A stretch of 64,000 nucleotides of DNA from Thuidium tamariscinum (lineage: Eukaryota > Streptophyta > Bryopsida > Hypnales > Thuidiaceae), in assembly GCA_947034885.2 (NCBI GenBank), contig OX344751.2:1-64000 (forward strand), in the 5' to 3' direction. Positions 3,318 to 62,469 of this stretch are shown here, piece after piece; position 1 is the first letter of the stretch, and every line of letters starts with the position of its first letter. A program made the translations under genes and the position numbers. Below the pieces are notes generated by a model. That model was not told the origin of the DNA and searched no databases. It saw only the letters and a list, made by a program, of their open reading frames with translations.

Positions 3318-3989
3318 TAAATATACTCAAGGGCTCTCTAAAATGATAAAAAACTCTTCAATTGGACATTGTATGAAGAACTTATGGACGGATGAAGTTT
3401 CCAAATAACAACCTACCTTCATCCATCCATAACTCATGCATACAAGGTCCAATCACCAAGTGGGATACAAATTCTAAACACCCACTCCTAAACTTACAAC
3501 ATTGCTTTAGGTCAAACTTTCGAAATCATCCATCTTCAAAAAGTCAACTTTGAGGTCAAATAGGCCATATCTCCCAAACTAAGCCCACTCTAATGGATTT
3601 TTTTTACTCCATTGTGTTCACAACCCTTGAAAATGGGGGGGTAGGTACCATGAAACCCTAAAAATACCTAAACCCTAAAAAGATACCAACCCTATTTGCT
3701 ACTTTTGAAACTCTTATAACTTTCAACCCTAAACTCTTTTGGGGAAACCAACACCACCATTGGATTCACAATACCCACAAATAGGGGGGTAGGTCTTCTC
3801 AAAACTTCAAAATACATTACCCTAAAGAAAGTCAACTCACCCTCTAAAAGTCCAAGTTGCTATATCTCCCAATCTGTGATAGTGTAATGGTGGTTTTTTT
3901 CACCATTGGATAGGCCATACCCCTAAATGGGGGGGTAGCCAAAATCCTAGCTCAAAAAAAACATGTCCAAAATTCGGGGATGCCCTTGT

Positions 3990-4078
3990 AACCCTAAACC
4001 CTTAAACCCTTAACCCTAAACCCTAAACCCTAAACCCTAAACCCTAAACCCTAAACCCTAAACCCTAAACCCTAAACC
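3990..4078. repeat. Internal telomeric tract with variant units
   Basis: About 80 bp of CCCTAAA repeats between a complete unit A and a truncated one. It begins with the variant CCCTTAAACCCTTAACCC, which also occurs in the terminal array near 837-860. The matching tract in the next higher-order copy (7221-7273) lacks the variant. Confidence 0.9.
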
Positions 4079-7000: not shown

Positions 7001-10000
7001 CAATACCCACAAATAGGGGGGTAGGTCTTCTCAAAACTTCAAAATACATTACCCTAAAGAAAGTCAACTCACCCTCTAAAAGTCCAAGTTGCTATATCTC
7101 CCAATCTGTGATAGTGTAATGGTGGTTTTTTTCACCATTGGATAGGCCATACCCCTAAATGGGGGGGTAGCCAAAATCCTAGCTCAAAAAAAACATGTCC
7201 AAAATTCGGGGATGCCCTTGTAACCCTAAACCCTAAACCCTAAACCCTAAACCCTAAACCCTAAACCCTAAACCAACACCACCATTGGATTCACAATACC
7301 CACAAATAGGGGGGTAGGTCTTCTCAAAACTTCAAAATACATTACCCTAAAGAAAGTCAACTCACCCTCTAAAAGTCCAAGTTGCTATATCTCCCAATCT
7401 GTGATAGTGTAATGGTGGTTTTTTTCACCATTGGATAGGCCATACCCCTAAATGGGGGGGTAGCCAAAATCCTAGCTCAAAAAAAACATGTCCAAAATTC
7501 GGGGATGCCCTTGTAACCCTAAACCCTAAACCCTAAGTCCAAGTTGCTATATCTCCCAATCTGTGATAGTGTAATGGTGGTTTTTTTCACCATTGGATAG
7601 GCCATACCCCTAAATGGGGGGGTAGCCAAAATCCTAGCTCAAAAAAAACATGTCCAAAATTCGGGGATGCCCTTGTAACCCTAAACCCTAAACCCACCCT
7701 AAACCCTAAACCCAAACCCAAACCCTGTAAGGAGTACCACGGGTGGTCATTACCTCCCGAAGAGGGGCATCTACACTGATCGTGTAGGCACAGCTCGTCA
7801 CTATCTAGGCTTGTATGGGGCAGAGTGGAGAGTACACATTCGATCTATTGCATAGATCGATACATACCACTCTCTATATTTTTTTGATTACATATTCGGA
7901 TATTTTTTTCTATTATATATATACATTTTTCTATACTTTTCTAGTTTCCAACAAGTCCTCTTAATTTGACACACCTAAAAAAACATTCATAATTTATACT
8001 CTAAATACCTTATTCTAAATATACTCAAGGGCTCTCTAAAATGATAAAAAACTCTTCAATTGGACATTGTATGAAGAACTTATGGACGGATGAAGTTTCC
8101 AAATAACAACCTACCTTCATCCATCCATAACTCATGCATACAAGGTCCAATCACCAAGTGGGATACAAATTCTAAACACCCACTCCTAAACTTACAACAT
8201 TGCTTTAGGTCAAACTTTCGAAATCATCCATCTTCAAAAAGTCAACTTTGAGGTCAAATAGGCCATATCTCCCAAACTAAGCCCACTCTAATGGATTTTT
8301 TTTACTCCATTGTGTTCACAACCCTTGAAAATGGGGGGGTAGGTACCATGAAACCCTAAAAATACCTAAACCCTAAAAAGATACCAACCCTATTTGCTAC
8401 TTTTGAAACTCTTATAACTTTCAACCCTAAACTCTTTTGGGGAAACCAACACCACCATTGGATTCACAATACCCACAAATAGGGGGGTAGGTCTTCTCAA
8501 AACTTCAAAATACATTACCCTAAAGAAAGTCAACTCACCCTCTAAAAGTCCAAGTTGCTATATCTCCCAATCTGTGATAGTGTAATGGTGGTTTTTTTCA
8601 CCATTGGATAGGCCATACCCCTAAATGGGGGGGTAGCCAAAATCCTAGCTCAAAAAAAACATGTCCAAAATTCGGGGATGCCCTTGTAACCCTAAACCCT
8701 AAACCCTAAACCCTAAACCCTAAATATACTCAAGGGCTCTCTAAAATGATAAAAAACTCTTCAATTGGACATTGTATGAAGAACTTATGGACAGATGAAG
8801 TTTCCAAATAACAACCTACCTTCATCCATCCATAACTCATGCATACAAGGTCCAATCACCAAGTGGGATACAAATTCTAAACACCCACTCCTAAACTTAC
8901 AACATTGCTTTAGGTCAAACTTTCGAAATCATCCATCTTCAAAAAGTCAACTTTGAGGTCAAATAGGCCATATCTCCCAAACTAAGCCCACTCTAATGGA
9001 TTTTTTTTACTCCATTGTGTTCACAACCCTTGAAAATGGGGGGGTAGGTACCATGAAACCCTAAAAATACCTAAACCCTAAAAAGATACCAACCCTATTT
9101 GCTACTTTTGAAACTCTTATAACTTTCAACCCTAAACTCTTTTGGGGAAACCAACACCACCATTGGATTCACAATACCCACAAATAGGGGGGTAGGTCTT
9201 CTCAAAACTTCAAAATACATTACCCTAAAGAAAGTCAACTCACCCTCTAAAAGTCCAAGTTGCTATATCTCCCAATCTGTGATAGTGTAATGGTGGTTTT
9301 TTTCACCATTGGATAGGCCATACCCCTAAATGGGGGGGTAGCCAAAATCCTAGCTCAAAAAAAACATGTCCAAAATTCGGGGATGCCCTTGTAACCCTAA
9401 ACCCTAAACCCTAAACCCTAAACCCACCCTAAACCCTAAACCCAAACCCAAACCCTGTAAGGAGTACCACGGGTGGTCATTACCTCCCGAAGAGGGGCAT
9501 CTACACTGATCGTGTAGGCACAGCTCGTCACTATCTAGGCTTGTATGGGGCAGAGTGGAGAGTACACATTCGATCTATTGCATAGATCGATACATACCAC
9601 TCTCTATATTTTTTTGATTACATATTCGGATATTTTTTTCTATTATATATATACATTTTTCTATACTTTTCTAGTTTCCAACAAGTCCTCTTAATTTGAC
9701 ACACCTAAAAAAACATTCATAATTTATACTCTAAATACCTTATTCTAAATATACTCAAGGGCTCTCTAAAATGATAAAAAACTCTTCAATTGGACATTGT
9801 ATGAAGAACTTATGGACGGATGAAGTTTCCAAATAACAACCTACCTTCATCCATCCATAACTCATGCATACAAGGTCCAATCACCAAGTGGGATACAAAT
9901 TCTAAACACCCACTCCTAAACTTACAACATTGCTTTAGGTCAAACTTTCGAAATCATCCATCTTCAAAAAGTCAACTTTGAGGTCAAATAGGCCATATCT

Positions 10001-10435
10001 CCCAAACTAAGCCCACTCTAATGGATTTTTTTTACTCCATTGTGTTCACAACCCTTGAAAATGGGGGGGTAGGTACCATGAAACCCTAAAAATACCTAAA
10101 CCCTAAAAAGATACCAACCCTATTTGCTACTTTTGAAACTCTTATAACTTTCAACCCTAAACTCTTTTGGGGAAACCAACACCACCATTGGATTCACAAT
10201 ACCCACAAATAGGGGGGTAGGTCTTCTCAAAACTTCAAAATACATTACCCTAAAGAAAGTCAACTCACCCTCTAAAAGTCCAAGTTGCTATATCTCCCAA
10301 TCTGTGATAGTGTAATGGTGGTTTTTTTCACCATTGGATAGGCCATACCCCTAAATGGGGGGGTAGCCAAAATCCTAGCTCAAAAAAAACATGTCCAAAA
10401 TTCGGGGATGCCCTTGTAACCCTAAACCCTAAACC

Positions 10436-10890
10436 CCTAAATGGGGGGGTAGCCAAAATCCTAGCTCAAAAAAAACATGTCCAAAATTCGGGGATGCCCT
10501 TATAACCCAAAACCCTAAAACCATAAACCATAAACCCTAAACCCTAAACCCTAAACCCTAAACCCTAAACCCTAAACCCTATTTGCTACTTTTGAAACTC
10601 TTATAACTTTCAACCCTAAACTCTTTTGAGAAAACCAAGACCACCATTGGATTCACAATACCCACAAATAGGGGGGTAGGTTTAATCAAAACTTCAAAAT
10701 CACTTAACACAAAGAAAGTCAACTCACCCTCTAAAAGTCCAAGTAGCTATATCTCCCAATCCGTGATAGTGTAATGGTGGTTTTTTGCACCATTAGATAG
10801 GCCATACCCCTAAATGGGGGGGTAGCCAAAATCCTAGCTCAAAAAAAGCATGTCAAAAATTCGGGAATGCCCTTGTAACCCTAAACCCTT
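10436..10890. repeat. Diverged unit A fragments and telomeric tract
   Basis: A short A fragment (about 10436-10503) is followed by a degenerate CCCTAAA tract to about 10580. A clearly diverged A copy follows (GCTACTTTTGAAACTC, G-run TAGG, GATAGTGTAATGG). This marks the change from the homogenised subtelomere to the older, unhomogenised layer. Confidence 0.85.
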
Positions 10891-11405
10891 AGTTTCAAAT
10901 GGAACACCCTCTGAGTTCAAAATCACCCTCAAGCCTTAAACAACCAAAATAAAACAAAATTTATAGTCATTTGTCAAATTTTAAACCCTTAAAGTCTAAA
11001 CAAAATACCCGCTGTAGTTAACGGGTCCAAAGTGCATCAAGTCATGGCATTTTTTATAATTAGTTTCAAATGGAACACCCTCCAAGTTCAAAATCACCTT
11101 CAAGCCTTAAACAACCAAAATAAAACAAAATTGATAGTCATTTGTCAAATTTTAAACCCTTAAAGTCTAGACAAAATACCCGCTGTAGTTAACGGGTCCA
11201 AAGTGCCTCAAGTCATGGCATTTTTTAGGGTTTAGTTTCAAATGGAATACCCTCCAAGTTTTAAATCACCCTCAAGCCTTAAACAACCAAAATAAACCAA
11301 AATTGATAGTCATTTGTCAAATTTTAAACCCTTAAGAACTAGACAAAATACCAGCTGTAGTTAACGGGCCCAAAGTGCCTCAAGTCATGGCATTTTTTAT
11401 AGGGT
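10891..11405. repeat. Satellite S1, about 171-bp unit, three copies
   Basis: Units begin AGTTTCAAATGGAA at 10891, 11062 and 11234 (periods 171 and 172). Each contains GCTGTAGTTAACGGG (at 11011, 11182 and 11354) and ends in CAAGTCATGGCATTTTTT. No coding potential. Confidence 0.92.
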
Positions 11406-29520: not shown

Positions 29521-29890
29521 TAAGGCGCCCCACACAAAAGTCAAACCCCCTCAAAGTCAAAACTAAGCGCCAAAAATAGAAAAGGTATTTTTAGAAACAT
29601 AAGGCATTTTTAGAAAGCTCTTTTCAAGCCGAATCCAAAACATTACTCCTTGTCCAAAAATTCCTCAAAATGCACCCACAATCGCAAAGTCAAACCTCGG
29701 GACCCTCAAGTCAAAGTTGCCATATCTCACAAATGGAGCATTTCTTAAGCTTTTTAGTTTCACCATTGGATTCGTAGACCTCGAAAATGGGGGGGGGGGG
29801 GGGGTAGGTCCAATAAAAACCTTAATCCAAACTGTCGAAAAGCTTAAGGATACTCTTGTAACCCCTAAACCCTAAACCCAAACCCTAAAC
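29521..29890. repeat. Decayed unit A ending in an expanded G-run and a telomeric tract
   Basis: An A-type piece with GTTGCCATATCTCACAAATGG, a run of 16 G (29789-29804) before TAGGTCC, and the usual ending CTTGTAACCCCTAAACCC. The CCCTAAA tract (about 29861-29890) directly abuts integrase coding sequence at 29891. Confidence 0.85.
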
Positions 29891-30724
29891 CCTATTAACC
29901 CACCAAGTAGGGATGGAAGAAAACGTTATATTCTAGTAGCTACGGAATATGTCACTAAATGGGCAGAAGCCTCAGCTACTAGAACTATTGATGCTAACAC
30001 AGTAGCCAAATTTTTATATGAAAATATAATCACCAGATTTGGTTGCCCCAGAGAGTTGGTAAGTGATCGAGGTACTCATTTCATAAATGATACTATTGCA
30101 AAACTTACGGAAAAATATATGATTAAACATAGGAAAACTAGTCCTTATCACCCAAGGGCAAATGGCCAAACGGAAAAGACTAACGGTATTTTATGTAAAA
30201 TAATTACAAAAACGGTCCAAGGGTCAAACACAGATTGGGATGCCCGAGTGTTTGATGCCTTATGGGCATATAGAACAGCTTATAAAGTTACCACAAAAAG
30301 TACACCATTTCAACTAGTCTATGGGCAAGAGGCTATTTTACCAATTGAATTGGAAGTTCAATCGTTACGAATCGCCCTTGAAAATAGACTAGGTGATGAG
30401 GAATCGTTAAGAGAAAGATTTGCAATGTTAGAACAATTAGATGAAACTAGAAGACAAGCCTTTCTCAATATGAAGTCTATACAAAATAGAAGGAAGTCTT
30501 ATTATGATAGCAAATTAATCCCAAAGAAATTACAACCTAATGATTTGGTGCTTTTATATGATAGTCGATTTCAGAAATTTCTAGGAAAATTTAAAATGAG
30601 ATGGTTTGGACCTTATAAAGTCCTTAATTCTTATCCCAATGGATCTATAGAAATTCAAGATTTTGCTGGAAATAAACATGACACCCGTTACAATGGCTAT
30701 AGACTTAAACCCTACATAACTTGA
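29891..30724 (+). pseudogene. Ty3/gypsy integrase, 5'-truncated pol fragment
   Basis: An open frame of 277 codons without ATG enters integrase at PINPPSRDGRKRYILVATEY. It contains the second catalytic Asp (VSDRGTHF) and the catalytic Glu 36 residues later (NGQTEKTNG), the D(35)E spacing of retroviral-type integrases. After that come DALWAYRTAYK and TPFQLVYGQEAILPIELEV. The C-terminal end has a GPY-type module (MRWFGPYKV), and the frame stops at TGA. The first catalytic Asp lies only a few residues before PINPP in the family, so it has been removed together with reverse transcriptase, protease and gag. The cut falls at CCCTA, shared by telomere repeat and pol. IN at the end of pol is the Ty3/gypsy order. 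Confidence 0.9.
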
Positions 30725-33457
30725 GGACAAGTTATGAATTAAGTAGAGGGCCGGCCATAATGATGAATTAGGTGGCCAAAATTTGAAATTTTTACAATTT
30801 TCTATTTATTTTTATTTTTATTTTTTCGATTATTATTATTATTTCTAGTCCTATTATTATTTTGCAATAATCAGACCATTAATAAAGTAGATTTATATTA
30901 AATAATAATGACAATTTGACTTGAAGAAGATTTTGTAATTATCAAAAAGAAAGAAATAAAACAAGGCAATTTGTCATCAAACTGGGAAATAAATGTAGCA
31001 TTTATTAACGGCAAATCAAAAAACAATGAGTGGGCGACTGGTCGAGCCAGTCGCCACACCCGCCACTTCTTTCCCAAATTTTCTTGACAAATAGCCAGGG
31101 TTTGGATGAGTGAGCTTAAAACAAATTGTCAATTAGGGTTGTGTATGGCTAATCGTCTGATTAAGTGAAGTGCTGCGCACTGATTACGGAGTGATAAATT
31201 GTTGAGTTCATGAGCGGTTCGTCTGACGAGCGAGGAGGCAAATTGTTTGAGTAATCGGGAGTTGCAGGAGGTGAGCGAATTGATTTCTTTATGCAAATCT
31301 GATTGCAAATTGCCATAGAAATCTTTACTGCTTATCGGGCGAGTTCCTTGTACGAATAAAGAGTGTAGCAATTTGTCAATTTGCTGTGTACTTGGAGGGA
31401 TGTAAAAATGCGCATTAGCAACTGACAAATTGATAAACAGAGAAGTTGCGGAGAGAACTCGTAGCAATTTGTTAAGCGATTACAGAAATCGGGTCTTGTT
31501 CAAATACTAAGACAAATTGCAATTGAGTTGGCTGCAAGTGTGGGTAACAAAGACGATTTGTTAATACAAAACTTAGGCGATTTGTATAAGTGTTGCAGGT
31601 TCTTGAAGTAAAATACTAAACCTAACCAAAAGTGTTCCTAGTGGTTGGATGCGAGAGAGAATGGAAGCAAATCGCTGTAGTGCAAATTGTTTTATCAAAC
31701 TGACCAATTGCCTGTTTTTGCAGAAGGAAGAAATTAGTGGAACTGCATCACGGACTATTTGCCGAGAGAAGTGGGACCGATTGACAGCTTTCTTTTAAAA
31801 GAGGTTAGTCACGGTTCACTGACAATTTGACTGAAAAAAAAAAAAAGCCAGTTAGAAAACTACCGCGATGAACAAATTGTCTCAACTTGAGTCGTAGGTC
31901 TGTCGTGTAGACAATTTGTTAAGTGAGCTATCCAATAATGGTTGAACTCGATTTCTAAGAAGTTATATTGCCGAGCCGACTTGTCTAAAAGCAGTGCAAA
32001 AGCAAATAGCCGACAGTTTTTAACTTTTCAGTATTTTACAAGTTGTCACAACCAAGCTTAAAACGGTTAGAAGAGTCTCTCAGATTTTGTTGAAATCCTG
32101 AAGAAATGGTCATGTTGGTTTCTGTAAAAGAGAAAGTCTAATTGCCAGAAGTTATTTAAAATTCTGAAAGAAGATCTAATTGTCTGAAAATTTGAGAAAG
32201 GAAAATATAAAGAGAGAACATGATAAAATGACGAGTGTATAAACCTGTTCTCTTTAAATTAAATAACTTTATAGACAAATTGACGAGAAGAGTTTACTTA
32301 ACCAATTGTCGTAGAGAGAAGAACAAATAGCACCTTCCCTGTAATTGACAAATTGATCAGAGCAAATTGCCGAGAGTATGGCAAGAAGTGATAAGCGGAT
32401 AGACCAATCGAATTGCCTGTAGCGAAGTAATAGAAAAGAGAAAATGAGCAACTTGCGAGGAAATGACTGTGTAAGGAGTTTAAGGTCAAATTGTCTCGAA
32501 AATTTTATTTCATAATAAAGATCAAAACATGATAAAGAAAATTATAAGAGACTAATTGTCTTGTTGATAAAAGAAAAGAAGAAAAGAAAGGCTGCAGCAA
32601 TTTGCTAAACGAGTAGGGTAAAAGAAGTGAGAAGGAGCCACTGTTGAGTGTTAAAGTGAGACAAATTGCCGAGTAGAGGTACCAAACTGACAATTTGACT
32701 GCATTTACAGACAATTTGCCAAGTACAGTGAGTGGAAGGAGCGTGAGGACTGTACCACCAGACTGACAAATTGACCGACCGGTGAAAGACAAGGTAAGAG
32801 ATAGAGAAATTGTTGTTCAAACTCCCATTAGTCTAATTGCCAAGTGAAAGGAAAGAATAAAAAAATTATGTAAGAAAACATGATAATTAGTATTCTGATT
32901 CTAATTGCAGAGAGGTTAAGCCGAATTGCTAACATTTAACTTCTCTATCAATGAGAGAACATGATAAAAAAATAAAATAAAAAATAAAAAATAAAATTGA
33001 GAGAAAGCAAGGATAAAGAACTAACTGTCAAATGTTTAAACCTTTTCACTGCTATTTAAAAGAAAATAAGACTAATTGCTAAGAAGAAGAACTGGAAGCC
33101 ATGAGGAAGCAAATTGTCTTGTCGAGTTGATAAAGTTCTTGAGTGAATTAGGGAGCTTTGTTGTGTGAGTAGTGAGGCAAATTGACACAGGAAGGTAACT
33201 AAGTCAAATAGAAAAGAGAAAATGTGTGACTAAGTAAGGTGGAGCGTTGAAAATTCTCTAAGTCAATTAGCCTATTAGTAATTGAGAATGGAGCAATGAT
33301 TCAGAACAATTCAACATTTGAGTGAAATAAGGCAAGTTGTCTAAGTGTTAGAACTTTTTAAATCTAAATTGTCTTAACGAATCTTGACAGCCAGTCGACC
33401 CAAATTAAGGAAGTCGCAAAGTGTTAAAGCCAAATTGCCATTGTGACAAATTGACAG
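30725..33457. other. Long non-coding spacer between pol and the downstream ORF
   Basis: No ORF of note on the plus strand. From 30910 on it is dense with the GRCAAWTTGYC-type motif described separately, for example 31120-31136, 31511, 32660, 32710-32720 and 32765. Long pol-to-ORF spacers are known in some plant Ty3/gypsy lineages that carry an additional ORF. A purine-rich AAAAATAAAAT stretch lies near 32968-32996. Confidence 0.7.
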
Positions 33458-36400
33458 ATGGCACCACCCAAAGAACGACAGCTTTATGCTGTTCCACTGT
33501 ACGAATGGCCCCCGGACATTTATGAGCAAATTGTTAAGGCCAGGGAATTGCAGCTTCAATCGGTTGGAATGTGGGAGCATCTTCAAATGAAGTGGGAGCA
33601 ACCCGACATGGACCGCATCCGCTTATTCATCGTGGCAACTGGCTGTGGTGAAGTTTTGGACAAGATAATGATGCAAGGGCAGCCATGTCGATTTGACCAG
33701 GAGCGAGTGACGGAGATGTTGGGCTTTGAAGTTGGAGTCCCTCCACGGAAGTTCACCCTAAAGCTCACCAAGAGTGACAAGACAGAGATTTTTGGGGAGA
33801 AATTTGCACACGCCAAGAAGGGCAACAATTGGGATCTTCTGCAAGTGGGGTCACCTCTTTCTGAGTGGCTGCAATTTGTCAATCAACGGATCTTTTTGGC
33901 GAATCGACAGGAGTTAGCCACGGCCGAAGCAATTGCTTATGGTATGGCGGCGTGGAGAGGCCAGTTGCTGGATTGGGGGCAAATTGTCTATCAGCACATC
34001 AAGGTGGAGCTGACTTACAAGCGCACCAAAGACCCCTTAACCTTGGTGTCGAGAGTATACATCTCGGCGATTACCAAGGCCCCAGTAAACCGAGATCGAT
34101 TTGTCCAGCCCTTGAAAACTAGGGAGCCCCCGAAGACAACTAGCCGAATCCCAACAGCGAAGGAGTCATCTGAAGAAAAGGAGACTCAGACAAGTTGCCA
34201 AGAACCACCCCGGAGGAACATTGAATTGCTAAATAGCCCCATGCTTAAATCAAACCTCAAGCAACGATGCGAGGAGTACCAGAAGGCTAGAGAGGAGATA
34301 TTTCAAGAGCTCCAAGGTACCTTGCGACGGGAGGACGAATTGCGTGGACAACTCGGGCAAATTGCTAAAGAAAACAGTCAGTTGCACAAACGCTGTGACG
34401 AGTTCCTCCGCCGCAATGAAGAGGCAGCGATTAATCTGGAAGCGATTCAGCGGATGATGCACATGGAGAAGACTGCGTGGGACGAAGCTAGGGCGAATTA
34501 CCAGAGGAAGATCGCCATCCTGGAGAAACGTGCTAATGAACAGGAGGACTCCACCAAAAAGATGAAGGAGCTTGAGGCCAAGATTGCCAAGCAAGGGTTG
34601 GAGCTGCGGGCTTACCAGGAGAACTTCAAGGCAATTCGTCTAACGCATGAGAAAGAGAAGGCTGCCTTGCAAGCCCAGCTTGAGGGCCACCGCGACAAAT
34701 TACCCGGAGCGAATCGACAACCAGGTGTGAGTGCCCAAATACAGACCAGCGAATTGCTGCAGTTGAGGACGCTGCAAGGAGATGCCAGGGAACTAATGGC
34801 GACTAATGGCGAGTTGCAAGAAAAGATGGAGACACAACAGGAGATTATCTCCTCCCTGCATTACGCGTTGTGGCAGCAGCAGCTCAAATCGCCACCCTCA
34901 TTTTCTCTCTTCCGTGCGTACGAATTGCAAAGGAATGCGTTTTTGGAGATTTTTGACTTGCAGAAGGACGCCACCCTTTCCACGCAACAATTTGAGCGGG
35001 TATGGGCAGAAGCTGATGCCACAGAGAATCACAAGAATTTGTTCTGTGAGATGTTGGCAAGAGGCGATTTGCAATTGGAAGATTGGACCGCCCTCTTCTA
35101 CCCCATCATTGACGTGGGAGCACGAGTCGAATTGTACTACGTCATGCTGGAGCGCCAACTTCAACAACAAAGGCAGTTAGACTACCCAGACGAGGGGATT
35201 AGACGAGTGCGAATTGCTAATCACCGACGGGCCATTTACCCAGCGGAAAAGGTTTCAGACGACCTAGCAAATCGAAGGCTGGCCGAGTTGCATGCTTTGA
35301 AGGATTCAATTTTGACTACGGGGCCAGGCGGTGAGGCTTGCATGCTCGGACTGTTGACAAATTGTCTGGAGCGTGAAGGAGTGGCGCAGCGTGGCGAATT
35401 GACAAATAGTCATTATGTTTACAATTTGCAAAGGACGTATCAGCGATTAGACAAGATTCTACTCAGGGCAGCAGCGGGAGAGACTCTTGTGCCAGATACC
35501 AGGGAAATTTGCGAATTGCCTTTGCCGCCATCGGACTACAAATTGGCCAATTGGCTAAGTGTGAGGACGCCAGTGTTGGGGTCGGAGCTGACGAAGTACT
35601 TCCTGGGCAACTATCATCATATGTTTGGGAATCCAGCCGAAGAAATTCCGATTCCTTCTTGGAAGGTGCTCGAATGGTTGGTGGAGGATTACGGGCAGAG
35701 CGTGCGTGAAGACAAGGCGTATGATATAGTCTACAAGACTATATCCCAAAACTGGCAGTGGGAGGCACCAGTGGCCCTAAAGACAAATAGCCATTTCTGT
35801 CCATGCAAGAGGCGGAACAAGTGGAGGCCAGATTCCCTCATTGACTCAGTCGAGTACAATTGGCCTCTGATACTTGGACAATTTGCCACGCCAGAGCAAT
35901 GCTCGGATGCTTACTTGGCGTTCTATGACGCTCATATTTCGCACACAGATCCAGTTTGCTTTAGGGCTGCAGTATTTTGCAAATTCTTGGGTGAGAATTG
36001 CATGGAGCACGAAGTGACCATCAATATCAATCGATTTGACCGCTTGCGCCCTGAGTTTCACCTGATGTTGAAGCTGCAGCATCGGAGCACCAGGTTTCAT
36101 CGAATTGTTGAAGTCATGGCGATTACACACTTCTGGTGGGGCTCTCATTTGTATTTCGTGAATGAATTCCCTTGCACCCGTTACTGGGCGTGGCAGAAGT
36201 GGTACATGGCGGAGGAGAAAGATCCGAATGGCCTCTATTCCAGGGATGATGACGTGAGGAAGGCGGTGGACAAGGCGATGGAGCAGCTGCAGAGGCGACA
36301 AGACCAGCACCGAAACAAGCGACACAAACAACATTGACGAGGGTGTCAATGGCTTAAATAGGGGGCTATGTGAGCCGTTCAAAATTTTTGATTTTTGCAA

Positions 36401-38790
36401 ATTGCCTTGTGTAGTGAGAATAGAGGCAATTTGTTAGGTCAAGTTTACACTTAGAAGGAATTAGAGGCTAATTGTCATTCAGATTCTAAAGGACATAGTA
36501 TTCAAAGATATGAAGCAAGGCAAATTGACTTGGCAGTTTTTCCATGAACGGTTGATTTCCAGCGTAGTCATATACTTAGTCGATTTGCCATTTACATTTG
36601 TACAGCACTCTTGATTTTCATAGCTAGACTATTTGTCGTGTTCTATGTACCACTGAATTTCTTCAATTCAATATAATATCTACTTGTCTAATCGTCTTGC
36701 TAACTGAGTACCTGCGATGGGGCCAGCTTTTACGGCAAATTAACTGATTGAAAGTATTACTTGTGTTTTTGTGGGTCCAGGGATTGGACTTTGTCTTTGT
36801 GTGTGTGTGTTTATGAGTTAAGCAAATTTGACAAAGAGCAAATTGCCTCTGAACTCAGTTGAAGAAATTCTTTTAATTGTGACTTGATTCAGTGTTTGTG
36901 TGAGAGTGTGGAAAAGAGTTAAGCAAATTTGACAAAGAGCAAATTGCCTCTGAACTCTACTTTAAAAACTTTACTTGTGCATTACTTAAAATTAGAATTT
37001 GAATAGAATTATTTTGGTATGTTAGAACAATTTGCTGTGTATATAATTGAAATGCTGTGTGACTGTGATGATGTGTGAAGTGCTAAAACGAATTGTCTTT
37101 TTGTGATCTGTCTATTTGCCTTAGTTGCATTCAGTTTTTAAGGCATTGAAAATTATAAAAAAGCCATAATGCAACTAATTGTCATTGTGTCCTGTATGTG
37201 AGCAATTTGCCATTGAACTGAACGAATTGCCTATGTGTTCAGTGCTAAATTGTTGACAATTACTAAGAACATATGATACAGCTAATTGTCTTCGTATGGC
37301 ATGTATGTAAAATCAGCCATGGAGCTTTAGCAAATTGACATGGCCATTGTTCATGTTAATGTATGCATGTGATGTGTAAGTCAAATCGTCTATGTGTGAT
37401 GGAGAAGTGCAATCAGATTATTCCACCATACCTACAGTCGAATTGTCTTAAAGTTTAATTGCAAAATCAAATTGTCAGAATTAGTGGAAACTTGAGTGAG
37501 ATTTTTCAGCAATTTGCCTGAGTGAATAAATATAAACAGCCAATTGCCCAGCATGAGTTGGTGTGGTTGGTGAAGAAGCTGTGGTGAATTGCTTTGAAGT
37601 CAAATCGATGCAAAATTAAAGAAATGGAGAAATTTTGGCAAATTGCCAAAATACAAAGTGGAACCTGAAAAGATAAAACTAAAGTGACTTGGCCGAATTG
37701 CAAATTGACATCAAGCGTCAACCAGGGGGTTTTACCTAATTGATATTAAAAGTTTTATCTTATGTCTAATTGCATTTGTTATGATAACAAATTGTTATAA
37801 AATTGAAGATGAATAAATGAATAATTAAATTGTAAATTTTGACAAATTGCTATTGTGCATTGAAATTTTATAATAAAATTATTTGTGAAATTGTTGTGAG
37901 TTTTGATTATAGAAAAAGAAATTCTATAATTAAAATTTAATTTAATTGCATTGATAAATTGCATTATCGTAATTGTGAAATATGTCAAACTTATAGAAAA
38001 TATGATTTGATAAATATGAAGATGTAATTAAATTAGAGTTTAAATTGCTGAAATTGATTAATTAAATTAAATTACTTTTCAAAAGGAATTAATTTGATAA
38101 TAATTATTTAAAAAGATTAAATTGTTGATAAATCTAATTGAAAAGAAACCATGGTCTTAGGTCCATAGGAAGTTACTATGACGAATTGCCTTATGACAAA
38201 TTGCCTTGGTGTTGATGATGAAGAAAAATGACAAATGGCTTTGAAGTGTGATGGTGGAACAATATGACAAATTGCCACGTGATTTATAAAATCACCACTA
38301 AATTATTTTAGTGAATATATTAAGGAACAAATTGCCAATAATATTATAGATTGTTCTAAAATAAAATTGAATTAACCAATTGACTTGAACTTGTGCAGTG
38401 GCATGGAAATGAAGACAATTGCATATACATTCATGCCTTGCATTTAATTAGGGACAAATTGCCTTAGGACTGGGACTGGTTTGATACTCATTTAAATTTG
38501 TGATTAGGCTAGATAAATAGTGACGGAAGACAAATTGCTTGGTAAAAGAATTTCATGATAATTAAGGAATTGGCCGAAGAAGAATATTATATATATATTA
38601 TATAACTTGTTGCAATGATTAAGTCGGATAGTGCATGCAGGTGACAAATTGCTACATACCCTTGACAATTTGCTATTCCCTTTTAGAATACTAGTCCAGG
38701 ACTGGGACAGCACTCATGCGTCCATAGCATTATTAATGGACTGATCAACAAAATTGTTTCTTGGGAATAAGAGTGAAACCCCAAATTGCC
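30905..38790. repeat. Field of dispersed near-palindromic motif GRCAAWTTGYC
   Basis: Short words of the type GACAAATTGCC, GGCAATTTGTC, GACAATTTGCC, CTAATTGTC or GCGAATTGCC occur roughly every 25-80 bp from 30910 to 38790, in both orientations. The consensus is close to a dyad: half-sites GRCAA and TTGYC around one central A/T. Full or nearly full matches include 32710-32720, 33978-33988, 35877-35887, 38643-38653 and 38664-38674. The motif is present through the 959-codon ORF and both flanks, but nearly absent from the integrase fragment and from DNA beyond 38.9 kb. It is not tandem: spacer lengths and spacer sequences vary. Function unknown; I infer a binding site for a dimeric protein. Confidence 0.8.
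33458..36337 (+). CDS. Long intact ORF downstream of pol (959 residues), unknown function, coiled-coil protein
   Basis: One uninterrupted frame from ATG (context GACAGATGGCACC) to TGA. Residues 1-215 form a globular N-part whose WLQFVNQRIFLANRQELATAEA stretch (about residue 138 onwards) and following GQLLDWGQIVYQHI recall the plant-transposon domain found in extra ORFs of some plant retroelements; this is a tentative match from memory. A Ser/Thr/Pro-rich linker (about 216-257) leads to a long coiled coil (about 258-475). A Trp-rich C-part (about 485-940) contains HFCPCKRRNKWRP near 780, and the tail is basic (QDQHRNKRHKQH). No signal peptide or membrane segment is visible, so it is not envelope-like. 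It lies 2.7 kb downstream of pol on the same strand and is itself studded with the AAATTG-type motif. Confidence 0.8.
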   Translation: MAPPKERQLYAVPLYEWPPDIYEQIVKARELQLQSVGMWEHLQMKWEQPDMDRIRLFIVATGCGEVLDKIMMQGQPCRFDQERVTEMLGFEVGVPPRKFTLKLTKSDKTEIFGEKFAHAKKGNNWDLLQVGSPLSEWLQFVNQRIFLANRQELATAEAIAYGMAAWRGQLLDWGQIVYQHIKVELTYKRTKDPLTLVSRVYISAITKAPVNRDRFVQPLKTREPPKTTSRIPTAKESSEEKETQTSCQEPPRRNIELLNSPMLKSNLKQRCEEYQKAREEIFQELQGTLRREDELRGQLGQIAKENSQLHKRCDEFLRRNEEAAINLEAIQRMMHMEKTAWDEARANYQRKIAILEKRANEQEDSTKKMKELEAKIAKQGLELRAYQENFKAIRLTHEKEKAALQAQLEGHRDKLPGANRQPGVSAQIQTSELLQLRTLQGDARELMATNGELQEKMETQQEIISSLHYALWQQQLKSPPSFSLFRAYELQRNAFLEIFDLQKDATLSTQQFERVWAEADATENHKNLFCEMLARGDLQLEDWTALFYPIIDVGARVELYYVMLERQLQQQRQLDYPDEGIRRVRIANHRRAIYPAEKVSDDLANRRLAELHALKDSILTTGPGGEACMLGLLTNCLEREGVAQRGELTNSHYVYNLQRTYQRLDKILLRAAAGETLVPDTREICELPLPPSDYKLANWLSVRTPVLGSELTKYFLGNYHHMFGNPAEEIPIPSWKVLEWLVEDYGQSVREDKAYDIVYKTISQNWQWEAPVALKTNSHFCPCKRRNKWRPDSLIDSVEYNWPLILGQFATPEQCSDAYLAFYDAHISHTDPVCFRAAVFCKFLGENCMEHEVTININRFDRLRPEFHLMLKLQHRSTRFHRIVEVMAITHFWWGSHLYFVNEFPCTRYWAWQKWYMAEEKDPNGLYSRDDDVRKAVDKAMEQLQRRQDQHRNKRHKQH

Positions 38791-38900
38791 CATTCAAATG
38801 TCTTTATATGTGGAAATTAGCAGTATATTTCAATCCATTCTGACTTACATGTGACTTTAGTCATAATACGTTAGACTATTTGACCATTCCCCTAGATTTG
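36338..38900. mobile_element. 3' flank of the element, possible polypurine tract and LTR
   Basis: Just after the ORF, TAAATAGGGGGCTA (36355-36368) followed by TGTGAGCC at 36369 is a possible polypurine tract and LTR start. The 5' LTR is missing because the element is truncated, so this cannot be tested by pairing. The motif field continues to 38790. A local duplication of about 40 bp (GTTAAGCAAATTTGACAAAG) appears near 36817 and again near 36917. AT-rich TATA-like stretches lie near 36660 and 38585. No CDS. Confidence 0.35.
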
Positions 38901-40974
38901 AACCCCTATACTATAGTCTTGGGTTTTGTGAGATTTAGGCAAAATCTAGACTACACTTGTACTTAACTATTTTTTGAATAATGAAAATCAAGCCAATCTT
39001 TCTTGAAAGTTTTGTCTTAGACCTTCAACTCAGTTCTAAGTTCTTCAAATTCCTTCAAAAATTTTAATTCAAGGTCCATACTCCATAGTTCCAAAAAATT
39101 CCACGAATGGTGGTCAAAGTCATCTGATATTTTTACCACATTATCCTAGATAAATAAAGTACAAGATCCTACGGTTAGATCCCAAGAGAAGTATATTTGT
39201 GGTTTTCATATAGTGAACGCAGCAAAAATGGCAGTTTTGAGTGGTTTGTAACAAAAAAATGGCCTTGGTCCTTTAGGGGTTAACAATATAGGGAGAGATT
39301 TATAACCATATTTTATTGCAAGACATTCTCAACTCTCAAATTGTAACTTGTAAGGGCCTAATAGTTCAATTTCTAAACAAATTAGAAAAATGTATCACCA
39401 TACTTTCTACAATTCTACAGTTGGAAGATGATGACATTCAAGATTGCATAAGAGGATGAGTCAAATTTGAAAATGATGCAATTATACTTGAAAAAAAATT
39501 TGAAAATGTGAAAAATTATTGAATCTTTCATTTGAATGTAAGTGAATCTGTGAATGTGAATATGAAGGAGTGTACTTCAAATAATTTTATCCCTTACTAG
39601 TTTGCATTTAGAAATATGTAAAGAATATATATTTTTTCTATTAAAGTAGGGTGTATACATTTTTTTAATTAATAATGTGTTGAATCCTTAGATCATTCAT
39701 CAATTTACTTTCACTATTTATTATTTTATATGACACCCATAATACAAAAATGATGAAGAAGCTTGGGTTTAGAATTTAGGGTTTAGGGTTTGGGCTTGTC
39801 TACACTCTACAGAAGTGGACGTCGATGCTATTCGGATAGGGTGTAGGGTTTAGGACTTACTTTCTTTAAATGTGCATAATGAAACTCAATTTCACACATA
39901 CATTGAACATTGGATGCTTTTTCCAACACTTCCCATTTTAACCCTTAAAAGACCGCACTGTTTTTTTGGGATGTATAGAAATTTTGGGCAGGTACCTACG
40001 AGCGGGGACTTTTAGATCTAAGGCTGAAATTTGAATAGAATTTGGGGGCAAGGAAGATCTTTCATATGCAACAAATTTTCATGACATTTGAAAATACAAG
40101 TCAAAAGTTATAGCCTAATATGTTATTTTTTTTCATAACAGGGCATTTCATGCAAATCAAAGAAAATCACTTTTTTCATAAACAAGAATTCCACAAATTG
40201 ATTTTCTAGAATTTTGTATACGCGTGAAGTTTTGAATCATTCCATTTTGATGAATGAGTCAAAAGTTATGTGGATTTTTTGTTTTTGGTCAGTTTTGGAT
40301 TTCCTACTCTAAAAATAAACTTCAAAATCCTTTATCTTACCCAATTTCCAATATTCTTGGACAAAAATAAAATTGTAGGATGTAGATACATTATTACAAC
40401 ATTTCAAATTTTCGACCATTGAGAATTTGGGATTGGAAATTTTCAATTCCATATTTCAACTATAAATAATTTAGTATGTTTAATCATTCTCTACTACTAC
40501 ATACTTACTATTTTTTTCCATATGTTGTACTATTCCAAATGATTTGAAAATTTTCAAGCATGTGCCCAACTTGTCTAGGAAAACAAATCCAAAGAAACAC
40601 CACCATTTAGGTCATTTTTTCATAGAAATGTGAGCTTGTGAAGTGCACCTGCCTTGCTTTTCACAGAGTCAAAAAAATGATTTTAGTTAATTTGAATGCT
40701 TATATCTTGCAATCCACTCGGTGGAAATGTTTGAAATTTTTACTACATGTTTTTGATACTATATAATACAATATCCTATGGTCAGATATGTCAAAAAAAG
40801 TTTTTTGCCAAAAATTTTGGTACTTGTACTAGAAATGGCAGTTTTGGTCTTTCAGAGTGCTTCTAGTGAAAGTATATTGACGGTCCTTTAAGGGTTAAAG
40901 CTTTAAATATGACTTCTAGGAACCCAATGTTGAGTTTGGACTTGTGGAATCCAATGTTGAGTTTGGACTTGAAA
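38901..40974. repeat. AT-rich region with diverged direct repeats and an inverted telomeric tract
   Basis: Segments around 39110-39290 and 40720-40890 are diverged direct copies, sharing AAATGGCAGTTTT and GGTCCTTTANGGGTTAA. A related piece in reverse orientation lies near 39935-39955 (TTTTAACCCTTAAAAGACC). At 39765-39794 there is a TTTAGGG-type tract (G-rich strand on plus), opposite in orientation to all other telomeric tracts here. No gene seen. Confidence 0.6.
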
Positions 40975-57490: not shown

Positions 57491-57589
57491 TCAACACATA
57501 GTTGACTTTTTTAAAAGGTAATAAAAAAATCCACGTGGATTTAAGTTCATGCCACCTAGACACCATGGGCGCGCACGCAACTCAACAAG

Positions 57590-58190
57590 GCGGGGACGTG
57601 AGACAGGGCGGGGACGCAAAAAATGACAAGGCGCGGACGTCAACTTCTTTCTGCTTTTGTAATTGGAGTTTTGAGAATTTGGAGGCATGCAATATACCAT
57701 TGGAAAGGTATTCAAAATACCTTTCCAATGGTATATTACACGCCTCTAAATTCTCAAAACTCCAATCGCAAATTGGAAAACAAATCTACTACTAAAATCC
57801 ACTATGCAGAGAGTCCATGAGCAGGCGCGGACGCAAGGCCGGGCGGGGACGTCAGGGCGGGGACGCAAGTCTGGGCGGGGACGCTAGGGCGGGGACGCAA
57901 AGACGGGGACGCAAAGATGGGCGCGGACGTTGGGGCGTAGACGTCAACTTTCTTCTGCTTTTGCGATTGGAGTTTTGGGAATCTGGGGGCGTGTTATATA
58001 CCATTGGAAAGATATTTTGAATACCTTTCCAATGGTATATTACACGCCCCCAGATTCTCAAAACTCCAATCGCAAATTGAAAAACAAATCTGCTGCCAAC
58101 ATCCACAACGCAGTAAATCCGAGGCAGGGCGGGGACTTCAAGGCGCGGACGCGAGGCAGGGCGGGACCACAAACTGCGTGGGTGTTTTCA
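57590..58190. repeat. Two modules of a 105-111-bp palindrome plus GGGCGGGGACG minisatellite
   Basis: Each module has a long palindrome (57662-57766 and 57963-58073; GCGATTGGAGTTTTGGGAAT ... CCATTGGAAAG / CTTTCCAATGG ... CCAATCGC). It is followed by AAACAAATCTRCTRC and then CpG-rich repeats of GGCGGGGACGCAAG and GGCGCGGACG. Further palindromes of the same family are at 60577-60687, 63683-63793 and 63941 to beyond the window. Confidence 0.9.
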
Positions 58191-59135
58191 AATGGCCTTG
58201 GCCTTGGGATTCCTCTTCTTCCCTAAACCCGCCCCCCCAAAAGGCCACATTAATTACTGTCAACTCATTTGTGCACGGTTGACTAGATCTCCAAGTACAT
58301 GGAGGTCAAATGAACACATTAAGAACTCCACCTACCAACTACAACTTGCACAAGGGTGGAGGCCTTTGAGAGCTAAGTGCATTTCTCTCTCTTGTGGCCT
58401 AACTCCTCAAATCTTCTTTCTCACAAGACCTTGGATTCTTTATTCTTGAATTGAATCTTTGGGAACTTGGAGGATAAAATAGTTCTTTTGTTTGTATTTG
58501 TTTTCCTCAATTTGATTCTTGAAGGCTTTGGATGGGGTTATTAGAGGGTGATGTAGCCCTTGCTATTTATTTATACCAAAGCTTGGATATGTAGGTTATT
58601 TTTTGACTTTCTCTTACAGTAGTTTTACTTAATTATTTATTGTGTAAATTCTAAAGAAGGGATTTAGTGAAGGGCGCGTCTTTTTCCATTTCTTTTTTAA
58701 GTAATTTGAATGAATGGTTTTTTTCCCCTTACCATTTCTTTATTTTACTTTAGAAAGTGTGAAGAATTAATTAATAATAGTGGAGGCCCTCGTTCTTCAT
58801 TTATTTTAGGGCGGTGTACAATTGAGTTCCCCTAGGGATTGTTCATTTAGTTATTGAATGCATGAAGGAGGGATTTGGAAGAGAGGAGGAGGTGACTTTG
58901 TTGTATTTCTTAAAATCTTGAAGTAGAGTTTTTAGTTCTTGAGGAATTTTTTTTTTTTGGATGAATGTCTTAAGAAATGATACAATGGGGACCAAGGGCA
59001 CTCTCTCCCCATTTTTCTTTCCATGTAGCATTTATATTGTTGAAGGGAATTTAGAATTTAATTTTTTAATGATTGAATGAAGGATTAATCACACAATTTT
59101 ATTATCTCAATCCTTGAAGGTCACAATGGATATTA
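57711..59135 (+). repeat. Inverted repeat arm A
   Basis: This segment recurs, reverse complemented and nearly identical, at 62470-64000 (arm C). Part of it (57923-58735) also recurs at 59935-60728 (arm B). The arms carry one palindrome module, then CAAATGGCCTTGGCCTTGGG, TACATGGAGGTCAAATGAAC and an AT-rich tail ending GAAGGTCACAATGGATAT. Open stretches of 62-98 codons occur identically in all arms but show no domain and are not called as genes. Confidence 0.95.
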
Positions 59136-59934
59136 TTTTTTTTCCAAATTTTCAAAGGAAAGTCTTAGATACTCTAAACTTAAATTCAATACTTCTTTTC
59201 TTTCTTTTCAATAAAATTCTATTGAAAGTTGAGTTTAGCTTGAATAAAAGACAACCTTTCTCACAATTGCAATAAGAAAGACAAAAATTAGGTAAAACTA
59301 ATATTTTCCATTTATCCTATTGACACAATTAATTGTATAGTTATCTAGAATATGAAATAACATTAATTTCTATGATACAAAGAAATAAATTTAAATGATT
59401 AAAATGCCTCCACTTTAGTTCCATCCTTTTTATATTCACAATTAGGTGTTGAACCAAACTTAGGCAGCATATAATCTTTCTTTCCATTTAAAGAAAAATT
59501 TAATTGAATTCAATCCATTCAATAAAATAATTCAAGTGCCTCTCGTCTTGTTCCGTCTTTTCTATTCCAACAATAACTTGAATCAAGCAAAGCTAGGTAT
59601 AAGCTTCAGCATTAATGGATAAAAGTATAGAAGAAACCTTCACAAGCCTTTTCAATGGACTTGGGGCAATGAGATTCTTCTTCTCCCTAAAATCAAGAAA
59701 TTACTTTCATGTTGCGAAGTCATATTTGTACTAGAGACCAAATCTAGAAGTCCATGATGCTGAAATGGCCATATTAAATAATTCGCCTACCTCAATCTTT
59801 AAAAGGATTGGAAAAGGCATGCATTCTTAATTTTGGGGCCTACCTTTCTATGTCTTGTTTCTATCCAAGCACCTTGCTACTTCAATTTTCAACTCAATAC
59901 CAAAACTTTTAAAGGGACACTTTACAAAAAACCA
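59136..59934. repeat. Spacer with inverted tandem units and a diverged family copy
   Basis: 59160-59640 contains units of the roughly 105-bp family seen at 61090-62095, in reverse orientation (for example CTATTCCAACAATAACTTG). 59640-59934 is a diverged direct copy of 60770-61075 (GGATTCTTCTTCTCCCTAAAA, listed from 59680, then CTACCTTTCTATGTCTTGTT). Confidence 0.7.
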
Positions 59935-60728
59935 TTCATTCAAATTACTTAAAAAAAGCAATGGAAAAAAACGCGCCCTTCACTAAATCCCTTCTTTAGA
60001 ATTTACACAATAAATAATTAAGTAAAACTACTGTAAGAGAAAGTCAAAAAATAACCTACATATCCAAGCTTTGGTATAAATAAATAGCAAGGGCTACATC
60101 ACCCTCTAATAACCCCATCCAAAGCCTTCAAGAATCAAATTGAGGAAAACAAATACAAACAAAAGAACTATTTTATCCTCCAAGTTCCCAAAGATTCAAT
60201 TCAAGAATAAAGAATCCAAGGTCTTGTGAGAAAGAAGATTTGAGGAGTTAGGCCACAAGAGAGAGAAATGCACTTAGCTCTCAAAGGCCTCCACCCTTGT
60301 GCAAGTTGTAGTTGGTAGGTGGAGTTCTTAATGTGTTCATTTGACCTCCATGTACTTGGAGATCTAGTCAACCGTGCACAAATGAGTTGACAGTAATTAA
60401 TGTGGCCTTTTGGGGGGGCGGGTTTAGGGAAGAAGAGGAATCCCAAGGCCAAGGCCATTTGAAAACACCCACGCAGTTTGTGGTCCCGCCCTGCCTCGCG
60501 TCCGCGCCTTGAAGTCCCCGCCCTGCCTCGGATTTACTGCGTTGTGGATGTTGGCAGCAGATTTGTTTTTCAATTTGCGATTGGAGTTTTGAGAATCTGG
60601 GGGCGTGTAATATACCATTGGAAAGGTATTCAAAATATCTTTCCAATGGTATATAACACGCCCCCAGATTCCCAAAACTCCAATCGCAAAAGCAGAAGAA
60701 AGTTGACGTCTACGCCCCAACGTCCGCG
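59935..60728 (-). repeat. Inverted repeat arm B
   Basis: Reverse complement of arm A positions 57923-58735, nearly identical, including the palindrome (60577-60687) and the CpG-rich GTCCCCGCCCTGCC repeats. The right edge is sharp at CGTCCGCG (60721-60728). Confidence 0.95.
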
Positions 60729-62469
60729 ACAGGGCGTGGACGCTATGGTGTGGACATTACAGCTTGGACAAGAATGGAGAGGGAACCTTGGCGGGCCTTT
60801 CAAATGATCTTGGGGTCATAGGATTCTTCTTCTCCCTAAAATTGAGGGATCACTTGAATGTTGTCAACTCATTTTTGTACTATGAACCAAATCTACAAGT
60901 ACATGATGGTCAAATGGCTACATTAAATACTTCACGTACCCCAATTTGCAAAGGAGTTGAAGAAGGAATGCATTCTTATTTTTGGAGGCCTACCTTTCTA
61001 TGTCTTGTTTCCTCTCAAGGCACCTTGCCACTTCAACCTTCAATTAAACACCAAAAATTTTAAAGAGACACTTTGAATAATAAAAAATTTTGTCCATTGG
61101 AGGTTGAGGTTATTTCTTGCTTAGTTTGGTTCAAGTTATTGTTGGAATAGGAAAGAAGGAACAAAAGGGGAGGCACTTGAATTATTTTATTTTATTTTCC
61201 TACAATAGAAATCAAGTTTTTTTTTGCCTAAGTTTGGTCTAACATTTAATTGTGGGAATTATAGAAAGAGGGAATTCCAAGAAAGCATTTGATTCATTGA
61301 ATTTTTTCTTACAATATAAGTCAAGGTTATTTCTTGTCCAAACTTGGATCATTGAATTGTGGTAATGGAAAAGAACGGAGAACACTTGAATATTTTTTTT
61401 CTCTTTTAAAATACCAGTCAATGTTATGTTTTGTGTGAGGTTGATTCAACATTTTATTATAGGAATAGGAATGAAAGGGAACTTTTAAATCATTTTATTT
61501 TATTTTATTTAAAATAAGAGTCAAGGTTGTTTCCTTACCCAAGTTTGGATCATTTAATTGTAAAAATGGAAAAAGAAGGGGGACACTTGAATCCTTTACA
61601 CTTCTTTTCACCATAGGAGTAAAGGTTAGTTTTTGAATCTTGACTAAGCTAGGATTGTGGAATTGTAGAAATTGAAAAGAAGAAGAGGTACTTGAATCAT
61701 TGAAAAAAATTCTCTAATAAAGAGAAAGATTATTTTTAGCCTAATATTGGTTTAATATTTGATTGTGAAAATAGCATAAATGGAATTAAAAAGGAGGGTT
61801 TTGATTTGTTAATATTTCTATTCGCCTAATAGATAGAAAGGCTATTTCTTTCCTAAGCTTGTTTTAACATTTAGTTGTTGCAATAGAAAAGAAAGGATTA
61901 AAAGGGAGGCACTTGAACCATTTAATTTTTTTTTTCTATGATAGAAGCCAAGGATATTCCTTGCCTAAGTTTGGATCAACATTTAGTTGTACAAATACAA
62001 AAGCAACAAAGGTATTTGATTTATTATGATTTCTTTTTCCCAATAGAGACAAAGGTTATTTTTTGCCTAAGCAATTAAATGTAGGAACATTGAAAAAGAA
62101 AATAAATGAGTAATGTTCATATATAACTATATATGCACTTCATTTTCATATTCTTTTGGACAAATCTAAAAAGGTTACGACTCCTCAATCATTTGTTCTA
62201 TTAAATGTAGGCCCCCAAAACTAAGAATGCATTCATTCTTCAACTCTTTTGCAAATTGAGGTAGGTGAAGTAATTAATGTGACCATTTCACCATCATGAA
62301 CTTGTAGATTTAGTTTGTAGTACAAAAATGGGTTGACAACATTGAGGTAATCCCTCAATTTTAGAGAGAAGAATAATCATATGACCCCAAGTCCATTTGA
62401 AAGGCCTACCAAGGTTCCACTCCATTGTTGTTCTAGCCGTAAGGCCCCCGCCCTAGCGTCCCTACCAAT
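60729..62469. repeat. Spacer with degenerate roughly 105-bp tandem repeat
   Basis: 60770-61075 is a diverged copy of the body of the arm family in plus orientation; 62210-62450 is another in minus orientation. Between about 61090 and 62095 some ten degenerate units of about 105 bp recur (GTCAAGGTTATTTCTTGCC, TTTGGATCAACATTTAATTG, GAGGCACTTGAATCATT). No gene. Confidence 0.75.

Follow-up and report, generated by a model that had tools for sequence, protein, structure and literature searches.

Why should almost 8 kb at the 3' end of a plant retroelement, coding sequence included, be strewn with one short, near-palindromic word, and what might read it? The question is raised by a 64,000-nt stretch of the genome of the moss Thuidium tamariscinum (GCA_947034885.2, contig OX344751.2, positions 1 to 64,000, forward strand), hereafter the window, in which a preliminary description had noted a field of the 11-mer GRCAAWTTGYC at 30.9-38.8 kb, had taken it to cover an additional open reading frame (ORF) and its flanks, and had likened it to the motifs that VANDAL transposons of Arabidopsis carry for their own VANC proteins.

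The field lies in what remains of a Ty3/gypsy element. The window copy is 5'-truncated inside the integrase at ~29,898, where it abuts CCCTAAA telomere-like repeats (29859-29897, self-BLAST). The surviving 3' part of the integrase (rve) gene occupies 29898..30724 on the plus strand (PF00665, E 2.5e-11 on 29876-30721), and its stop codon at 30724 is followed, all on the plus strand, by a spacer of ~2.7 kb (30725..33457) that makes up the first third of the motif field, by the additional ORF, P0001, of 959 aa (33458..36337), and by a 3' long terminal repeat (LTR) of 2587 bp (36369..38955) that has TG...CA termini and reads TGTGAGCC...GACTACA. This LTR had gone unrecognised; it was found by comparison with an intact sister copy, element 2, and its ends are those at which the alignment to a 96.5% identical solo LTR (L060, C8:23582162-23584747, with the 5-bp target-site duplication (TSD) GAAGC on either side) stops exactly, at 36369 and 38955. 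With the LTR so placed, the 30.9-38.8 kb field amounts to spacer, ORF and 3' LTR, so that the earlier view of an ORF with flanks holds for the ORF and the spacer, the right part being LTR. Many further pieces of this LTR family occur in the genome at 69-97% identity, and together with the solo LTR they indicate that the family was active in the past.

Element 2 (C1:11,045,889-11,064,883) shows what an intact member looks like. It is bounded by the TSD AAGGC at both ends, has a sequence resembling a primer-binding site (PBS) after its 5' LTR (L041:2390-4958), and ends in a 3' LTR that runs from L039:8816, just past the ORF stop, to L040:1384; the two LTRs are 99.8% identical over 1185 columns and 100% identical over 1384. 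Its layout matches that of the window, with spacer, ORF and 3' LTR forming one block of ~8.4 kb at the 3' end of the 19-kb element. The Ty3/gypsy features are thus spread over two copies, LTRs, TSD and PBS in element 2 and the PF00665 integrase in the window, and the Ty3 assignment is one by gene order and integrase, not by pol phylogeny.

A plant-type CCCTAAA telomere (1-1059) opens the window and is followed by subtelomeric repeats, of which those at 1059-11400 form a higher-order repeat broken up by CCCTAAA blocks that recur regularly, several hundred bp from one to the next, and at 57589-64000 there are several repeats of 0.2-0.8 kb, ~78-99.6% identical, some direct and some inverted, which include GGCGGGGACGC-like units. 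Telomere-like repeats also stand on both sides of the element fragment, the CCCTAAA run on its left and a degenerate TTTAGGG run (39763-39855) on its right, in opposite orientations and both pointing outward, as though the two ends of a broken piece had each been given a cap.

That the words are in excess is plain from the counts, for which a strict site was defined as GNCNAWTNGNC, a loose site as RNCNAWTNGNY, and the expectation was drawn from 200 dinucleotide shuffles per region. Between 30725 and 38955 there are 44 strict and 97 loose sites (~0.8 and ~4.5 expected, the three regions summed), and the excess is found in the spacer (20 strict and 41 loose vs 0.16 and 1.21), within the coding sequence of the ORF (10 and 19 vs 0.47 and 1.84) and in the LTR (14 and 37 vs 0.17 and 1.43). 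The integrase piece has 1 strict and 2 loose sites (0.06 and 0.42 expected), the 25-kb right flank 1 and 7 (2.9 and 15.8) and the 18-kb left flank 5 and 11 (1.3 and 11.4), which bears out the near absence first described for the integrase and for the DNA past 38.9 kb, with the refinement that the field stops on the right where the 3' LTR does. Counted literally with up to one mismatch, GRCAAWTTGYC occurs 56 times (10 exact, 46 with one mismatch) between 30 and 39 kb, a span of nine 1-kb bins, against a single occurrence in the remainder of the window.

The site is indeed a dyad, although the original 11-mer was drawn too tightly. A two-strand expectation-maximisation (EM) search of 30900-38800, seeded with one of the words first reported, returned 169 sites, 95 on the plus and 74 on the minus strand, in which the constant part is a CNAWTNG core with an outer G...C; 134 such cores lie in 30725-38955, and the dyad-site field as a whole (30905..38790) has no strand. 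An unbiased palindrome scan of 80 inverted half-sites at 7 spacings gave C.A N1 T.G 158 times in the field vs 29 expected (z 23.8), with its special case CAA N1 TTG at z 24.9, while the best score among the controls (two flank pieces, gag-pol and two 3' regions of another lineage) was z 10.0, from a count of 9; C.A/T.G ranked first or second in all 9 pieces from the A and C families and L056 that were given to the scan. Beyond the site itself the flanking positions carry little information, the spacers are unrelated, and the spacing within the field is random-like; a tandem satellite is thereby ruled out, as had been supposed. Helical phasing was also considered and proved weak (R 0.13-0.16 from 191 non-independent pairs, six periods tried).

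Could such a field arise with no function at all, the words being made by repeat expansion or biased mutation? Slippage and duplication can cluster words, and the field does contain one pair of 65-bp repeats (self-comparison) and tandem-repeat rows, though at no more than two places, 32964-32997 (A-rich) and 38177-38276, a short repeat that contains sites. The unrelated spacers speak against this origin, as does the behaviour of the sites in coding DNA. When the ORFs are reshuffled among synonymous codons, the 19 loose sites of the window ORF compare with a mean of 6.7 and the 17 of element 2 with 3.8, and none of 1000 shuffles reaches the observed count in either case; amino-acid choice already lifts the number of ORF sites above that in dinucleotide shuffles. 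Loose sites in the pol pieces show no such excess over synonymous shuffles (581 and 201 of 1000 reach the count), and the 3 strict sites in the pol of element 2 are reached by 18 of 1000.

The individual sites move about under this constraint. Only 2 of 27 ORF sites are common to the window and element 2 (1.1 expected), 2 of 27 to the window and a third copy, L044 (1.3 expected), and 3 of 19 to element 2 and L044 (0.8 expected), and ORF sites thus turn over while their density is maintained. Among LTR copies the key motif positions are the better conserved ones: in the window family (3 copies) 740 of 777 (0.952) are conserved vs 5915 of 6533 (0.905) elsewhere, with none of 366 shifted controls as high, and in the element 2 family (6 copies) 966 of 1020 (0.947) vs 0.915, with 4 of 363 shifts as high; one of these six copies, L050, shows no excess conservation (0.876 vs 0.890). 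The excess is larger when only C and G positions are counted (0.951 vs 0.862 and 0.962 vs 0.893), which is opposite to the direction expected from deamination. Taken with the conserved LTR positions and the turnover at constant density, the synonymous excess in two ORFs leaves a functionless origin extremely unlikely, and we regard it as very probable that the dyad array is kept by selection.

Comparison between copies points the same way. In element 2 the loose sites are densest in the LTR (10.9 per kb), followed by the spacer (9.3) and the ORF (5.9), whereas gag-pol has 1.2-1.3 per kb and the flanks 0-0.3. Sites are present in the 5' LTR too. The integrase regions of the window and element 2 are 79% identical in nucleotides over 866 columns; their spacers have just 41 alignable bp, and the field is kept in both. 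Direct comparison of the two LTRs gives no match at E 1e-3, a single match across the ORF end runs 57 bp into the LTR, and the third copy aligns with parts of the 3' ends of both LTRs. Neither of the two outcomes named in the preliminary description as refuting it was seen in the copies compared: site density exceeds that of shuffles, and the field persists in other copies while the spacers diverge, although 8 of 21 related ORF copies in the tree have no detectable field. The shuffles and the further copies together support the view that this retroelement carries a field of dyad cis-motifs.

What varies among copies is the outer part of the site. Position 2 of the half-site is A or G in the window and T in element 2 (p ~1e-13 when sites are treated as independent); it is T in L022, L012 and L017, mostly T in L011 and L014, and A or T in L018, L021 and L025, several of the loci behind these tallies sharing ancestry, and position 10 mirrors position 2 between families. 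More distant families in the same genome, with related ORFs, carry other site codes in the same places. The C-type word CCNAWTNGG occurs 35 times in the fetched pieces of L053 and 21 times in those of L055; L056 has CNATNG, without the central base, 136 times vs ~25 expected; and family B (L043) has GACNATTGA 13 times in sense and never in antisense (0.3 in shuffles), a motif that the palindrome scan did not pick up. The codes scarcely mix, the three A fields holding 44, 49 and 28 A-type sites with 0, 1 and 0 of C-type and 0, 0 and 1 of B-type, the L053 field 31 of C-type and 4 of A-type, and the L043 field 13 of B-type and none of the other two. Each family thus has many short motifs of its own, largely private to it, at ~80-135 cores per field; common to the variants is an inverted CNA/TNG half-site, with outer bases and spacing that differ, and in L053 and L056 the sites extend into the end of the integrase.

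The family B copies are of interest for their arrangement, since at L043 and C2:11173370-11194436 integrase and ORF copies recur 14,950 bp apart and a PBS-like word (L043:7821) stands right after the region 3' of the ORF; apparently these are two tandem elements sharing an LTR. In a more distant lineage (L057 on C4 and L058 on C3, integrase ~49% identical) the palindrome TCCGGA occurs 8 and 9 times vs ~1 expected, and L057 has GGAN5TCC 12 times vs 1.2 expected; L030 has ATCCGGA 14 times vs 0.3 expected. This is possibly another lineage with palindromic boxes of its own. A candidate alternative field of AAAAGTAA in L013, L015 and L038 was rejected, 9 of the 13 TACTTTT copies in L042 falling within one 500-bp bin.

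A tree of the conserved part of the ORF product (45 sequences, 24 of them genomic leaves, with family B set as outgroup) places the 13 field-bearing leaves in one clade, weakly supported at 0.54, and the 8 fieldless leaves, counted among the 21 outside family B, beyond it. Within the field clade L023 is equivocal, spacings 0-4 all being raised, and L030 is weak, with 4 strict sites. All 8 fieldless copies have stop codons in the ORF, and since several field-bearing ones do too, decay alone need not explain the lack of a field.

Are the sites read in DNA or in RNA? If the motif acted in RNA, then Gag, the ORF product or a host factor would bind it in the ORF mRNA or in the genomic RNA, here in the 3' part, and the binding would serve export, packaging or stability; the location of the field as a single block at the element's 3' end would suit such a role. 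So would the strand bias: although both orientations occur, as first described, they are not neutral, with T4T8 outnumbering A4A8 by 73 to 29 and a central A6 outnumbering T6 by 312 to 187 (64:25 and 290:173 without L021, which overlaps L025), the asymmetric variants preferring the sense strand and family B being wholly sense. This mild polarity and the fully oriented family B motif are unexpected for a purely symmetric DNA site; we take the polarity to be that of a bound complex, a reading that leaves room for an RNA role. Within sites, however, positions 2 and 10 form Watson-Crick pairs 137 times vs 152 expected (n=499; 133 vs 141, n=463, without L021), and positions 1 and 11 do so 270 times vs 306, a pair for which the site criterion itself introduces bias. 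An RNA hairpin is made unlikely by this lack of pairing at positions 2 and 10. Both half-sites change together between families, as in a DNA dyad, yet are unpaired within sites, which favours a symmetric DNA-binding protein over a hairpin, and a palindrome would bring no obvious advantage where RNA is recognised as a linear sequence; we consider action in RNA quite unlikely.

If a protein binds the DNA, it might be one of the host's. On that account the sites bind host transcription factors and accumulated in the LTR and 3' region for cell- or stress-specific expression, which accords with a field that covers LTRs, these being promoters, and with the suitability of symmetric sites for dimeric host factors; the palindromic boxes of Sireviruses have likewise been discussed with host stress-related factors, according to the accessible part of that report (PMC2829016). 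To serve four variants in the same genome, each of them found largely in a single family, several such factors would nevertheless be needed, the number of cores per field, running through a coding ORF and a whole spacer, goes beyond ordinary promoter needs, and a common CNA half-site with shifting outer bases and spacing suits the divergence of one protein family, so that host factors seem to us an unlikely, if serious, explanation.

An insulator is a further thought. The gypsy element of Drosophila carries about a dozen Su(Hw) sites in one short stretch, and a chromatin-organising array of that kind could block the spread of silencing with no self-encoded binder; dense, clustered sites in a retroelement, placed in LTR and 3' region, recall it. 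Here, unlike in gypsy, the sites extend across 8 kb, coding DNA among it, and vary from family to family, and we hold this to be very unlikely.

We lean, by a modest degree, towards a selected binding-site array for an element-encoded protein, most likely the product of the additional ORF, acting in anti-silencing or LTR activation. That the binder is encoded by the element at all is, on the sequence evidence, fairly probable; between anti-silencing and plain activation the balance would be about even. The family-specific site variants fit a co-evolving, element-encoded binder, but site, LTR and ORF phylogenies travel together, and their co-variation therefore does not single out the ORF product.

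The protein itself consists of an N-terminal region, predicted long helices at ~264-477 and a conserved C-terminal domain. The helices, of ~149 and ~47 residues with pLDDT ~65-70 over most of their length, probably form a coiled coil in the model, through which the product may dimerise. The C-terminal half was modelled at a mean pLDDT of 76.6, and the searches returned no solved structural relative for this half, no Pfam match for the conserved domain and no DNA-binding fold in the product among known folds, so that its presumed role as a DNA binder derives from the cis evidence. A first search, in which the best 7999 candidates were scored, found one homologue, P0002, at 27%; the C-terminal part then found 13, and a profile search 16, of which 12 were new. 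Of the 15 family proteins, scanned at E up to 0.1, 4 have an N-terminus distantly resembling Transposase_32 (PF20167; best E 2.9e-5), a likeness that falls short of the cut-off, and ORF pieces from L044 (E 0.0017, profile positions 17-174 of 177) and L010 (0.051) show it too, both below the curated cut-off; Pfam scans of P0001 and of its N-terminal piece gave no match to PF20167.

How this compares with known systems depends on the feature considered. In the accessible parts of the VANDAL reports (PMC5735166; PMC10398659), the VANC motifs are YAGTATTAY and AGTTGTCC/AGTTGTAC, which are not dyads, and they sit in non-coding tandem repeats and are absent from the coding probes tested; VANDALs are DNA transposons with a VANA transposase, and VANC has DUF1985/DUF287. 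Shared with them are the many copies of a short motif, the additional protein for which the mobile element itself codes, and related families whose differing motif sets diverge fast. The present element differs in being a Ty3 LTR element with integrase rve, LTRs, PBS and 5-bp TSD, in having dyad sites that enter coding sequence and have no tandem-repeat origin, and in its protein: Pfam scans gave no DUF1985 or DUF287 for P0001 at E up to 1, for the 15 family proteins at E up to 0.1, or for P0002 and five ORF pieces at E up to 10. The parallel first drawn with VANDAL thus survives in the privacy of the motifs to their families, and the best reading, by analogy, would be a system VANC-like in logic that is not VANC.

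The nearest retroelement precedent is offered by the Sirevirus RM boxes, which, as far as the accessible text goes (PMC2829016), are palindromic, occur in high copy number in LTRs and beside an env-like gene, and have element-specific variants with altered spacing around a common CGG-CCG core; they belong to Ty1/copia elements, number 9-32 copies among the table rows listed and form CpG islands, and host factors are discussed as their possible binders. Our element, filed as Ty3, has AT-centred CNA/TNG cores in place of that palindrome, ~80-135 per field and running through the ORF too. Since these boxes were already described, the cis part of the system is not wholly undescribed, as had been thought possible. 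Athila elements have an additional ORF with Transposase_32 (PMC11728184; PMC7264820); like theirs, the ORF here is in sense between pol and 3' LTR, and part of its family has an N-terminus with a distant, sub-threshold likeness to Transposase_32, while P0001 departs from them in the missing PF20167 match, the probable long coiled coil and the C-terminal domain. The accessible parts of those two sources mention no motif field. Retand, according to the part of the report available (PMC11963269), has an antisense TRP28 ORF (PF04195) and tandem repeats between pol and 3' LTR; it resembles our element in having an extra ORF of suggested DNA-binding or regulatory role in a long region between pol and 3' LTR, and differs from it in the antisense ORF and the tandem arrays, where ours has a sense ORF and dispersed dyads. 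Among the open-access matches listed, a scope outside which most of the subscription literature lies, we recognised no report of a Ty3 element with a comparable field of dispersed dyads.

On the reading we prefer, that of an element-encoded binder, the ORF product would form dimers by way of its long coiled coil. It would recognise a pair of inverted CNA half-sites together with the outer bases that differ between families, and would occupy dozens of such sites in the two LTRs and the element's 3' part. Once bound it would hold open both its own gene and the promoter in the LTR, whether as an activator of transcription or, in the manner of VANC on VANDAL, by taking away or blocking silencing marks, and the largely private outer bases and spacing would restrict the effect to its own family. 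As a wider proposal, which we put forward tentatively and at somewhat less than even odds, the additional ORFs that plant LTR retrotransposons carry, whether env-like or of Athila type, may encode sequence-specific DNA-binding regulators of private inverted-CNA arrays on the element's own LTRs and 3' region. Protein and array would co-evolve in outer bases and spacing, and retroelements would then have their own equivalent of VANC anti-silencing.

It is common for plant retrotransposons to carry an extra ORF between pol and 3' LTR, the role of which is unsettled, as the accessible part of one source has it (PMC7264820), and a 2026 paper states, in the portion available, that whether Tork and Athila elements encode such ORFs, and whether the proteins modulate the epigenetic landscape of the element, remains to be investigated (PMC12844716). 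The single genome of T. tamariscinum holds four or more sister families whose extra ORFs are related, along with four site codes that can be read, which makes the role of these ORFs directly testable by protein and site swaps. The system would show how a selfish element can let the specificity of a DNA-binding protein drift, and it may yield new sequence-specific chromatin-opening proteins; if true, the reading of private arrays would give a function to a protein class whose role has been unsettled.
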